Below, one piece after another: positions 2,549 to 5,841 of a DNA stretch of 64,000 nt (within the stretch, counting starts at the first letter, position 1; each line of letters opens with the position of its first letter). The stretch lies in assembly GCA_947493955.1 (NCBI GenBank), contig CANLSQ010000001.1:62001-126000 (forward strand), given 5' to 3'. Made by a program: the position numbers and the translations under genes. The notes under the pieces were generated by a model. It did no database searches and was not told the DNA's origin. It was given only the letters and a program-made list of their open reading frames with translations. Source of the stretch: an uncultured Sphingomonadaceae bacterium (GTDB taxonomy: Bacteria; Pseudomonadota; Alphaproteobacteria; Sphingomonadales; Sphingomonadaceae).

Positions 2549-3363
2549 AGCTGTCCCTTGCCTTGGGCGGCGGCGCAGGTTTGGGCTGGACCCATATCGG
2601 TGTGCTGCGCGCGATTGAGGATTCACCTTTGGAGATAGCGGCCATATCCGGCACGTCCATCGGCGCAATTACCGGTGCCAGCTTTGCTGCCGGAAAGCTC
2701 GATTATCTCGAAGAGACCGCGCGCACGGCCAATTTGCGAACATTGATCCGTTTCATGGACCCGCACTTCAAGCGCGGCGCGGTCATGGGCGCGCGGATGA
2801 TCGAGAAAGAGCTGGAAGAACAGCTTGGCAGCCTTACTTTTTCCGACTTGTCTATTCCCGTGGCTGCCGTCGCGGCGGACCTTAGAACTGGCGATACCAT
2901 CATCATGAACAGCGGTAAGCTGGTCCCGGCCATCCGTGCCTCCATGTCTTTGCCGGGAATTTTCAAGCCAGTGGAATATGACGGCCGCCTGCTTGTCGAT
3001 GGCGGTGCGGCGCTGCCCGTGCCCGTGTCTCCAGCGCGCGATATGGCGCCTGATGCCCTGTGCCTGTCCGTCAACTTGCAGGATGACTTCATCAACCGCG
3101 CGGAAATGGCGGGGATCAGCCGGGATGATGGCAAATATCCCAATAGCATTGCGATTGTGAAAGCCTCTATCGGCCTGTCTCTGCGCAATCTGGGGCGCTA
3201 TTCGCTGGCGCTCGACCCGCCGGATTTTTCACTATCCCCGCCTGTCGGCCATATCGACATGCAGAATTTCACCAAGGCTGAAGAGTTGATCGAAATCGGC
3301 CACCGGGAGACCGCAGCGATCATTCCCGACATATTGGCGAGAATGGAAAAAGGCGCTGCCTAA
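2545..3363 (+). CDS. Patatin-like phospholipase
   Basis: Predicted acyl hydrolase of 272 residues starting with GTG that overlaps the preceding TGA. It shows the patatin elements in order: the oxyanion loop LGGGAGLGWTHIG (residues 7-19), the nucleophile elbow GTSIG with Ser38, and the catalytic Asp in VDGG (Asp152). No signal peptide is visible, so it is probably cytoplasmic or membrane-associated. Its TAA stop uses the first two bases of the target duplication of the IS element that follows, so the insertion landed exactly at the end of the gene without changing the protein. Confidence 0.9.
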   Translation: MKLSLALGGGAGLGWTHIGVLRAIEDSPLEIAAISGTSIGAITGASFAAGKLDYLEETARTANLRTLIRFMDPHFKRGAVMGARMIEKELEEQLGSLTFSDLSIPVAAVAADLRTGDTIIMNSGKLVPAIRASMSLPGIFKPVEYDGRLLVDGGAALPVPVSPARDMAPDALCLSVNLQDDFINRAEMAGISRDDGKYPNSIAIVKASIGLSLRNLGRYSLALDPPDFSLSPPVGHIDMQNFTKAEELIEIGHRETAAIIPDILARMEKGAA

Positions 3364-3394
3364 AATTTAGGGCACTGTATACTTGACAAAGCAG
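3362..3394. repeat. Left target duplication and left terminal inverted repeat of the IS
   Basis: Bases 3362-3369 read AAAATTTA and are repeated exactly at 5834-5841. Bases 3370-3394 (beginning GGGCACTGTATAC and ending GACAAAGCAG) match the reverse complement of 5809-5833 at 22 of 25 positions. This defines the left edge of the element. Confidence 0.93.
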
Positions 3395-3417
3395 AGGCCA
3401 TATGCCATTAAAATTGC

Positions 3418-4392
3418 ATGGAAAACGCAATCGACATCTTTGCCCCTCGCTTTCAAGACGAAGACGCTGCCCGTGAGCATTTAGAAGCTATTCATTGGCC
3501 TGACGGTCCCAATTGCCCTCACTGTGGATCAGTGAACGCTAAGCGGCTGCCACCACAGAAGCGCAAGCCTACCAAAGCGCACCCCGGCGGGACCGTTCGT
3601 AAAGGCGTTGTCCAGTGCAATGACTGCCGCCAGCAATATACTGTGACCGTTGGGACCGTGTTTGAACGCTCCAAAGTTCCTTTGAATAAATGGTTGCTGG
3701 TCAATCATCTGCTTTGCTCATCCAAAAAAGGTATGAGCGCGCATCAGATTGCCCGTATGATTGGTGTTTCCTATAAAACGGCTTGGTTCATGATGCACCG
3801 CATCCGTGAAGCCATGAAAGATACTGATCAAGAGCCTCTAGGCGGCTATGGTGTGACCGTAGAAGCCGATGAGACTTATGTTGGCGGTAAAGACAAGAAC
3901 CGTCATGCCAAGGACCGTAAAGGCTCTGGTTTTGGCGTTCATGTCAAAATGCCTGTTGTTTCCCTTGTTGAACGTGGTGGCCGTGTTCGTAGCCAGCATA
4001 TGGCGCGTGTTACCGGACCTAATCTGCGCCATGCCCTCGTTACCAATGCAGATCGCGGTAGCTGGCTTATGACCGACGATCACAATGGCTACAAAGCCGT
4101 TGGCAAAGAATATACTGGCCATGGTGTCGTTAAGCACAGCCTTGGCGAATATGTCCGCAAAGGTGTCTTCCATACCAATACGGTTGAAAGCTATTTCGCG
4201 ATCCTTAAGCGCGGTATCATTGGTGTTTATCACTCAGTCAGCGAAGCGCATCTAAATCGCTATCTGGGTGAGTTCGATTTTCGCTACAATACTCGCAAGC
4301 TGAATGACTTTGAACGTTCCACAGAAGCCCTAAAGGGCGCTCGTGGCAAGCGGTTGACATATCGGCGGACTGGCGAAACCAGTTACGCTTAA
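3418..4392 (+). CDS. IS1595 family transposase
   Basis: Transposase of 324 residues. The N-terminus has a zinc-ribbon with paired cysteines (CPHCG near residue 34 and CNDCRQQY near 69), as in the IS1595 N-terminal domain. A helix-turn-helix-like region follows (SAHQIARMIGVSYKTAWFMMHRIR). The catalytic core shows the first Asp in VEADETYVGG, the second in LMTDDHNGY, and the block HTNTVESYFAILKRGIIG, then the typical RYLGEFDFRYNTRK end. No frameshift is seen, so the enzyme is probably active. The ATG lies 24 bases inside the left inverted repeat. Confidence 0.96.
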   Translation: MENAIDIFAPRFQDEDAAREHLEAIHWPDGPNCPHCGSVNAKRLPPQKRKPTKAHPGGTVRKGVVQCNDCRQQYTVTVGTVFERSKVPLNKWLLVNHLLCSSKKGMSAHQIARMIGVSYKTAWFMMHRIREAMKDTDQEPLGGYGVTVEADETYVGGKDKNRHAKDRKGSGFGVHVKMPVVSLVERGGRVRSQHMARVTGPNLRHALVTNADRGSWLMTDDHNGYKAVGKEYTGHGVVKHSLGEYVRKGVFHTNTVESYFAILKRGIIGVYHSVSEAHLNRYLGEFDFRYNTRKLNDFERSTEALKGARGKRLTYRRTGETSYA

Positions 4393-4675
4393 ACAGCATG
4401 CTAAGCGGTTAAGACGTCACCGTGAACGAAAACGGAACGGTTAGCTTTGGTTCGCCGTCATATGACTCGGAATATAGTTAATTTTGTGTTACTTAAACGA
4501 ATCAGGCCCCATCCCTAGGGACAAGGCCTGATAGTTGAAGTTGGCAGTGTTTTCGAGAACGGTCCGCCAGCTCCAAAAGTGGAATTTTCATTCCGGCGTG
4601 AGAACTGGAATAATACATTTAATTTTCGCTTTTGCAAGGGCTGTTCTCACCACTCTATGGTGAAAGAACCAAACT

Positions 4676-4867
4676 ATGAAACGTAAAAGCAGTAAACCAG
4701 TAACCTCCGAAATGGCGGCTCATGTCCGCTACCTCATAAAAACCAAAGGCCTATACCAGCATCAAGTCGCCGCGCTTGTTGGCGTCAATCAAGGTCGCGT
4801 TAGCGAGATCATGCAGGGGAAACGCTTCCCTGATGTACCGCCAGCGCAGGGGTCATTTCCCTTTTAA
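4676..4867 (+). CDS. Small helix-turn-helix protein (IS passenger)
   Basis: Protein of 63 residues with a basic N-terminus (MKRKSSKPVT) and a clear helix-turn-helix: YQHQVAALVGVNQGRVSEIM followed by QGKRF. This resembles a small DNA-binding family common in alphaproteobacteria. Within the element it may regulate transposase or passenger expression; that role is inference. A strong intrinsic terminator follows seven bases after the stop, so it is an independent transcription unit from the next passenger gene. Confidence 0.72.
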   Translation: MKRKSSKPVTSEMAAHVRYLIKTKGLYQHQVAALVGVNQGRVSEIMQGKRFPDVPPAQGSFPF

Positions 4868-4873
4868 CTTTTC

Positions 4874-4903
4874 GGGAGCAGGCACAAGTCTGCTCCCTTT
4901 TTT
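4874..4903 (+). terminator. Intrinsic terminator after the passenger HTH gene
   Basis: Perfect stem GGGAGCAG (4874-4881) with CTGCTCCC (4890-4897), eight-base loop, followed by TTTTTT (4898-4903). Confidence 0.92.
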
Positions 4904-4979
4904 CTCTTTATGGGGCTTAGGCGGCGTTTTCAGCATCCGCTTTAGAACCTCGTCTTCTTTTTTTTGATTGGTATCCGTC

Positions 4980-5753
4980 ATGACAGCACCTTTAACATCA
5001 ATTGGGAGCCCACAGGAACCAGATATATCATTCGCTCACGCGGGGCTTAAGGTAAGATGGGCCCAACAACACATCAATTTTGTCATGGCGGTTGTGGCTG
5101 ATTTTATCAAAAAACAAGAAAAAGCCGGAATCGCAAGTGTCGATAATCACAGCGGGAATATTAACATCGGTACCGCCGCAGTCCCACCTGAAATCTCTCT
5201 CGCTGCTGGCGATGCTATTTTTAGTCTGAGGTCCGCTCTCGACTGCTGTTGGACAGGGTTGAAGAGGTCTATCGATGCTAACGTCAGTAAAGGGACTCTC
5301 CCAAGAGGGGTTAGCCTGCAAGAACTGATAGGAAGCGTCAAAAGCGCTTCGATGGAGGATACCTTCAAGGGGCTGGATGATTTCATCATCAATAAAATAA
5401 GACCCTACAAAGAGGGCAATGAGTTTCTTTGGGCCGCTGGGCAGATCGACAATTGGAACAAACACAATATGATCATCGTTAGCGCACACCTCGCTAATGT
5501 CAGTAGTTTTAGTGCACAGTTCGGGGATGGAACCGAAATCAATATCAGCGACTGCGAATTTATAGGCATAAACTTCCTTGAATGGGGTAGTGGGTCTATC
5601 AATTTTCACGACAAACCCAACGTCACCATGGACGTAATCCTCAAATCTCGGCAATCCGGTGACGAATGGCCGCTTGTACCATTTCTCACTAGCTTGCTCA
5701 AAGAAACGCAGGAGGCTGTCGAGCTGTTTTCCTCTACCTTTGGCAAGGGTTAA
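4980..5753 (+). CDS. Unknown IS passenger protein
   Basis: Predicted soluble protein of 257 residues that I do not recognise. The ATG at 4980 is preferred over an in-frame TTG at 4968; neither has a strong ribosome binding site. It begins with a low-complexity stretch, then an alpha-helical region (GLKVRWAQQHINFVMAVVAD, a segment rich in Trp/His), a His/Asn-rich turn (VDNHSGNINIGTAAVPPE), and a second half with IDNWNKHNMIIV and a C-terminal helix. No signal peptide or membrane span. It lies between the HTH terminator and the right inverted repeat (80 bases to the end of the element), so it moves with the transposon. A role in transposition, host defence or regulation is possible but unsupported. 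Confidence 0.72.
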   Translation: MTAPLTSIGSPQEPDISFAHAGLKVRWAQQHINFVMAVVADFIKKQEKAGIASVDNHSGNINIGTAAVPPEISLAAGDAIFSLRSALDCCWTGLKRSIDANVSKGTLPRGVSLQELIGSVKSASMEDTFKGLDDFIINKIRPYKEGNEFLWAAGQIDNWNKHNMIIVSAHLANVSSFSAQFGDGTEINISDCEFIGINFLEWGSGSINFHDKPNVTMDVILKSRQSGDEWPLVPFLTSLLKETQEAVELFSSTFGKG

Positions 5754-5808
5754 AAGAGCGTCATCAATAAAAGCACCGGCCTGTCTAGAATCATCTACCA
5801 CAACACAC

Positions 5809-5841
5809 CTGCTTTGTCATGTATATAATGCCCAAAATTTA
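5809..5841. repeat. Right terminal inverted repeat and right target duplication of the IS
   Basis: Bases 5809-5833 are the inverted partner of 3370-3394 (22 of 25 matches); 5834-5841 read AAAATTTA, identical to 3362-3369. Confidence 0.93.

Follow-up and report, generated by a model that had tools for sequence, protein, structure and literature searches.

A probable cargo-swapping transposon of the IS1595 family in a Sphingomonadaceae genome

Insertion sequences (IS) of the IS1595 family that carry passenger genes are already known (PMC11891212, PMC3129680), and a zinc finger is a trait of the family (PMC8101967). According to the excerpts available of one further study, Tn3 transposons exchange toxin-antitoxin (TA) modules at the res site (PMC7157771). 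Here we analyze a stretch of 64,000 nucleotides from an uncultured Sphingomonadaceae bacterium (contig CANLSQ010000001.1, positions 62,001 to 126,000; hereafter the window), which contains a passenger-bearing IS1595-family element. We favor the reading that this element is a cargo-swapping transposon, and we place the probability of that reading at roughly 70%.

The element occupies positions 3370–5833 of the window and is complete, at 2,464 bp. Its terminal inverted repeats (TIRs; 3370–3394 on the plus strand and 5809–5833 on the minus strand) match at 22 of 25 positions, and an exact 8-bp direct repeat, the target-site duplication (TSD) AAAATTTA, borders it at 3362–3369 and 5834–5841. Read from the sequence, the left TIR contains an inward TTGACA and the right TIR an outward TATAAT. 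The 324-amino acid transposase (3418–4392, plus strand) matches the IS1595 model of NCBIfam (NF033547, 5e-61) and, in Pfam, both DDE_Tnp_IS1595 (PF12762, 1e-34) and, at the N-terminus, a zinc ribbon (PF12760, 2.5e-9). This combination of domain and ribbon with TIRs and an 8-bp duplication is that of the IS1595 family, and the passenger genes inside the TIRs make the element a transporter IS (tIS). By sequence, transposase and TIRs define a unit flanked by the duplications, bearing out the first-pass annotation, which had called a complete IS1595-family element with passengers and intact ends. The genome has a single copy of the element, and an Rfam scan produced no match.

The element consists of the left TIR and transposase, a slot A, a conserved minus-strand microprotein gene, a slot B and the right TIR. 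The microprotein gene, absent from the earlier annotation, is the minus-strand open reading frame (ORF) at 4981–4853, encoding a predicted 42-amino acid protein that begins MTDTNQKKEDEVLKRMLKTPPKPHK and has the motif VL[KR]RMLxTPPKPH; the call draws on profile matches, third-codon-position variation and the start overlap. Its start codon overlaps the divergent start codon of the slot B gene in a CATG at 4979–4982, a junction marked by CATG counts and by the end of DNA identity with a sister genome (see below). Slot B encodes a 257-amino acid protein (4980–5753, plus strand). As aligned, a conserved block of about 85 bp, corresponding to the 5' part of the microprotein gene, divides the two variable slots.

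We searched 30 genomes of the same genus, own included, and recovered 29 loci with the patatin-like gene that lies just upstream of the element. The spacer between this gene and glnK is uninterrupted in 24 of the 29 (140–156 bp, e.g., CTGCCTAAAATTTAGGCA) and occupied in five, namely the window and genomes G938, G945, G931 and G947; in all five the element is flanked by an exact duplication of 8 bp. In the window, the left TSD sits within the palindrome CTGCC-TAAAATTTA-GGCAG, just downstream of the patatin-like gene, and relatives hold the empty palindrome. The sister genome G938 has the same TSD as the window and a chassis 95.0% identical over 1,619 bp (98% in the slot A gene and 91% in the microprotein gene). 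DNA identity between the two elements ends 4 nt past the junction and resumes at the right TIR; the G938 cargo in between is another member of the 257-amino acid protein's family, with 24% identity over 164 amino acids. G945 and G947 carry cargo of a different family, RNxxxH (described below), and the elements in G931 and G947 are inserted in the opposite orientation. The duplication of the window and G938 lies one base away from that of G945, G931 and G947, and this palindrome has therefore probably been a target two or more times. Some of the difference in orientation could be due to inversion between TIRs. The first-pass annotation had also suggested recent movement. The 24 empty loci agree with that suggestion, but the insertion either took place before the lineages of the window and G938 separated or happened a second time in G938.

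Relatives of the transposase were found in 39 of 397 genomes of the host's family (DNA query) and in 34 of 337 genomes of its class (protein query, E ≤ 1e-60), own genome included in both. From 64 transposase places we bounded 50 elements, 43 by an automatic rule requiring TIRs and a TSD and seven by hand (L039, L040, L045, L046, L056, L057 and L059; L040 without a TSD, the other six with duplications that read 8 or 9 bp). The 14 excluded places (L048, L054, L097, L098, L105, L109–L112, L114–L116, L121 and L128) lacked an acceptable TIR pair, lay at a contig end or were degraded, and the TSDs are imperfect in L050 and L100 (6/8 matches) and in L108 and L119 (7/8). All 50 bounded elements, which range from 1.7 to 4.3 kb, have ORFs beyond the transposase. 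Main cargo ORFs were chosen automatically, such that some minus-strand choices may be wrong (e.g., L102, which has the RNxxxH label in the transposase tree); L108 and L120 were labeled 'other' by hand.

The microprotein profile matched 41 of the 50 elements, comprising the 24 used to build it and 17 more, and its best match was always antisense to the transposase. Flanking host DNA totaling 289,639 bp gave three profile matches, two of them in a neighboring element. The microprotein ATG lies within a CATG in 30 of the 41 elements, and in 18 of 24 tested rows this CATG also contains, at –1, an ATG that shares its frame with the longest cargo ORF of the plus strand. The P0004 search of 149 family genomes yielded 17 places in 15 genomes; sampled transposases precede 13 of these places, including our own, and three of the remaining four adjoin intact or broken transposase relatives. 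L151, the sole P0004 place without a transposase, is matched weakly (E 0.007). Close by are an RNFYIH protein and a pair that looks HicAB-like by eye, and the place is possibly a remnant.

Cargo class was distributed at random over the transposase tree. The 25 closest transposase pairs (79–92% amino acid identity) showed no cargo similarity by blastp at 1e-3, and such pairs include differing cargo families (RNxxxH, the 257-amino acid family and DUF1828). The 42 cargo-similar pairs fall mostly between diverged transposases, with the exception of the window and L038 (76% identity in transposase, 29% in cargo). On a transposase tree of 49 rows, with L059 left out for its short transposase, cargo class changes 18 times compared to a shuffled mean of 18.3, and was as low in 107 of 200 shuffles. 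For DNA, slot B sharing was ≤28 bp in 37 pairs with transposase-part DNA at least 75% identical over 800 bp, and no sharing above 200 bp was found among 1,275 pairs (54 elements: the 50 plus G938, G945, G931 and G947). Among 224 alignments of the microprotein block, 111 end at 0 to +5 nt from the junction, 27 at +6 to +15 and three further on. L039 and L123 appear mosaic, with a 102-bp block 97% identical compared to 75% for transposase DNA, as expected from recombination at the microprotein block. On these alignments, slot B extends from the overlapping start codons as far as the right TIR, and elements of near-identical chassis differ in it.

The predicted slot B genes belong to a few recurrent families, with RNxxxH, which we label HEPN-like, foremost. 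Of the 50 main cargo ORFs, 29 contain the pattern R[NHDK]x3H, compared to 4.4 on average and 11 at most after shuffling; 14 of 90 flank ORFs, which are longer, contain it as well. The stricter RNx3H is present in 21 of the 50, compared to an average of 0.9 and at most 5 after shuffling, and in two of the 90 flank ORFs. An R-x4-6-H motif marks the HEPN superfamily. Most of the 29 RNxxxH proteins, rows chosen by the motif, also have a common upstream W-x3-E region, and aligned rows are 11–24% identical to the first. The structure alignment used 27 of the 29, and the AlphaFold model of an RNxxxH cargo is a confident helical bundle with three strands (predicted local distance difference test, pLDDT, 90). 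PADLOC returned one weak LmuA match among 27 RNxxxH cargos, a scan of 76 genomes for PF18730 gave one sub-threshold match, and searches of PDB sequences with cargo proteins gave no useful match. Ten other slot B genes were scanned: three had no family, and the rest matched DUF1828 (L057, L091), NYN (L092), RelA/SpoT (L099), GmrSD_N (L108, L127) and DUF3800 (L113).

The window's own 257-amino acid cargo belongs to a separate family. As the first-pass annotation had found, it could not be placed: Pfam, NCBIfam, PHROGs, PADLOC and PDB sequences contained no match with E ≤ 1, and scans of IMG/VR and of phages gave none. Homologs occupy the identical slot in L038, L039, L040, L058 and G938, and weakly in G931 (E 0.004); in L109, L159 and L041, where the element or contig lacks an end, a transposase precedes them or a right TIR follows. 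The family occupies five separate tips of the transposase tree, and in an eight-row alignment G77, R84, L87, D88, P108, K161 and H162 (window numbering) are invariant. The model (pLDDT 79.9) is helical, with a beta insertion ahead of the final helix. Detectable membership in the RNxxxH family was rejected for this protein, for which hhalign gave a probability of 0.1. It has no R-x4-6-H motif and shows no homology to HEPN-like cargo; we assign it a putative effector role from its slot.

Slot A holds a 63-amino acid helix-turn-helix (HTH) protein (4676–4867, plus strand) that is HTH_37-like, scoring 26.9 bits against a cut-off of 27. The terminator noted earlier for this gene was found as a 10-pair stem with a T tract (4874–4897, plus strand), a match to the intrinsic-terminator consensus located 3' of the HTH ORF and within the microprotein ORF. 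Ten slot A genes of relatives were scanned, yielding DUF3892 in two, GIY-YIG in one and no match above cut-off in seven. The HTH and 257-amino acid genes had been proposed as a passenger pair. We rejected a functional pair, as G938 retains the HTH gene (98% identical) and holds a different slot B gene; the two genes therefore occupy different slots and form no unit.

The sequence comparisons support a modular exchange of cargo, for which we propose the following route. Cargo would be replaced through recombination between elements, anchored on the left in the transposase/microprotein block and on the right in the TIR or chromosomal flank. Transcripts of cargo and microprotein would be mutually antisense around their shared start codons, such that the microprotein locus may control cargo expression. 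The cargo products would be putative RNase- or nuclease-like effectors, toxin- or defense-like, that favor retention of the element. A broader version, toward which we lean less than not, is that a widespread alphaproteobacterial transposon family forms an integrase-free cassette-exchange platform. The microprotein gene, whose start codon is shared head-to-head with the cargo, would be its docking block and expression switch, and RNase-like effectors, most of them undescribed, would be carried between genomes and phages.

Several observations weigh against the cargo-swapping reading or parts of it. The microprotein profile was undetected in nine of 50 bounded elements, its start is not CATG in 11 of 41, and 83 of the 224 block alignments stop before the junction. 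The G938 cargo difference could reflect two independent insertions of related chassis, rather than a swap in place. A test of synonymous change gave 72.5% for the microprotein strand and 71.4% for the wobble-aligned antisense frame, without separation. We therefore assigned the gene to the minus strand by ORF integrity: in nine of 18 CATG rows, a stop codon 14 nt before the junction interrupts the wobble-aligned plus frame, and the minus ORF is intact. Foldseek searches of the PDB with the RNxxxH and 257-amino acid models gave nothing at E ≤ 0.001, Pfam gave weak HEPN hints in two of 29 RNxxxH members (best HEPN_Cthe2314, 0.0038), and a profile comparison found no link between the two families. 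The 'HEPN-like' label accordingly refers to motif and topology, and the toxic or defensive role of the cargo is one that we infer. Finally, the 257-amino acid homologs L007, L157 and L158 have no transposase match in their fetched flanks. The first-pass annotation had named passengers without a transposase as a refutation of the unit, and such cases thus exist, but they do not refute it because they are distant homologs only (22–40% identity).

We think it unlikely that cargo and microprotein form a toxin-antitoxin pair, with the microprotein as antitoxin. The two genes are divergent and adjacent, the RNxxxH motif is HEPN-like, and Tn3 transposons carry TA pairs, one with a HEPN toxin (excerpts of PMC7157771). 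One microprotein, however, accompanies many unrelated cargos, unlike a specific antitoxin, and it also stands beside cargos outside the RNxxxH family (L057, L058, L060, L093 and the window). Nor does the conserved block look like a DNA site, such as a recombination site or promoter, with no protein gene. Although it is short (~85 bp) and placed at the exchange boundary, single-base codon differences within it fall at the third position in 1,721 of 2,181 cases, and an ATG-started ORF is present in all 24 rows found by regular expression, which makes this explanation quite improbable. IS1595 elements with passenger genes have been recorded before (excerpts of PMC11891212, citing Siguier 2009), as would suit an ordinary transporter IS with two random passengers and unsystematic cargo. 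We consider that very doubtful given the fixed cargo slots and junction, the presence of the microprotein in 41 of 50 elements and the recurrence of cargo families on separate branches. Least probable of all is a slot B made of one rapidly diverging gene under diversifying selection, with no swapped cassettes: the window and G938 both hold the 257-amino acid family (24% amino acid identity) and RNxxxH proteins are strongly dissimilar (11–24% to the first row), but transposase pairs at 79–92% have differing families without detectable cargo similarity, and the abrupt loss of a DNA identity of 95% over no more than a few bases tells against it.

We also noted features of the ends, target sites and larger members of this group. 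In the TIRs of the 50 elements, inward TTGAC occurs in 59 of 100 ends and outward TATAAT in 42 of 100, and the tips may carry promoter parts. The chromosomal palindrome in the patatin-glnK spacer (L197–L200) is an insertion hotspot in one genus, in both orientations. Palindromic target sites are frequent, with at least five of six flanking bases complementary in 12 of 50 elements compared to 0.8% of controls; these 12 do not include the site of the window itself (3357–3369), which is off by one. Several target sites lie in CCCCGGATCAAGTCCGGGG-type repeats. L104 comprises two complete elements back to back, with transposases 84% identical and undetectable cargo similarity. L060 and L119 are larger elements whose minus-strand cargo resembles, by eye, DNA methyltransferases with ParB-like or other genes. 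An extra small minus-strand ORF lies near the right TIR in L043, L045, L047, L049 and L162. IMG/VR contigs held seven loci with such elements, and of five examined, L162 and L164 have TIR pairs and an exact TSD.

Should the cargo-swapping reading be correct, a simple transposon that has no known integrase or resolvase would retain its engine and exchange its payload at a defined base. Position alone would then flag many uncharacterized effector-like proteins, and one site and chassis with differing cargo would offer natural replicates for testing cassette exchange and regulation by overlapping start codons.

The system can be compared with four known ones. Compared with integron gene cassettes, the element behaves as one slot for a cassette, with a boundary that is fixed; unlike integrons, most members carry a single main cargo gene at any one time, and no integrase was noticed, although none was searched for. 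With HEPN RNases, many relatives' cargos share the R-x4-H motif and, in the model, a helical bundle, whereas no significant fold or family match was found and the window's own cargo is without the motif. IS1595 tIS such as ISNha5 (Siguier 2009, as cited in excerpts of PMC11891212 and PMC3129680) have in common with our element the IS1595-type transposase, TIRs, 8-bp TSD and passengers. What sets our element apart is a divergent microprotein that is conserved, a cargo junction at CATG, a pair of variable slots and a turnover of cargo that is chassis-wide. In the literature excerpts that our search returned there was no account of the junction, the microprotein or cargo swapping in IS1595 elements, some of which the 2009 family paper may mention. 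Passenger-bearing IS1595 elements are thus known, and these three features are apparently new. The nearest published parallel that we found, in the excerpts of PMC7157771, is the exchange of TA modules in Tn3 transposons. Tn3 has a resolvase and res site, whereas no resolvase was noticed here among the ORFs viewed, with no search aimed at resolvases, and the Tn3 pairs have been placed in established families of type II TA systems. The likeness lies in a fixed location with repeated acquisition and exchange, and in the HTH_37 antitoxins and HEPN toxin found among the Tn3 modules.

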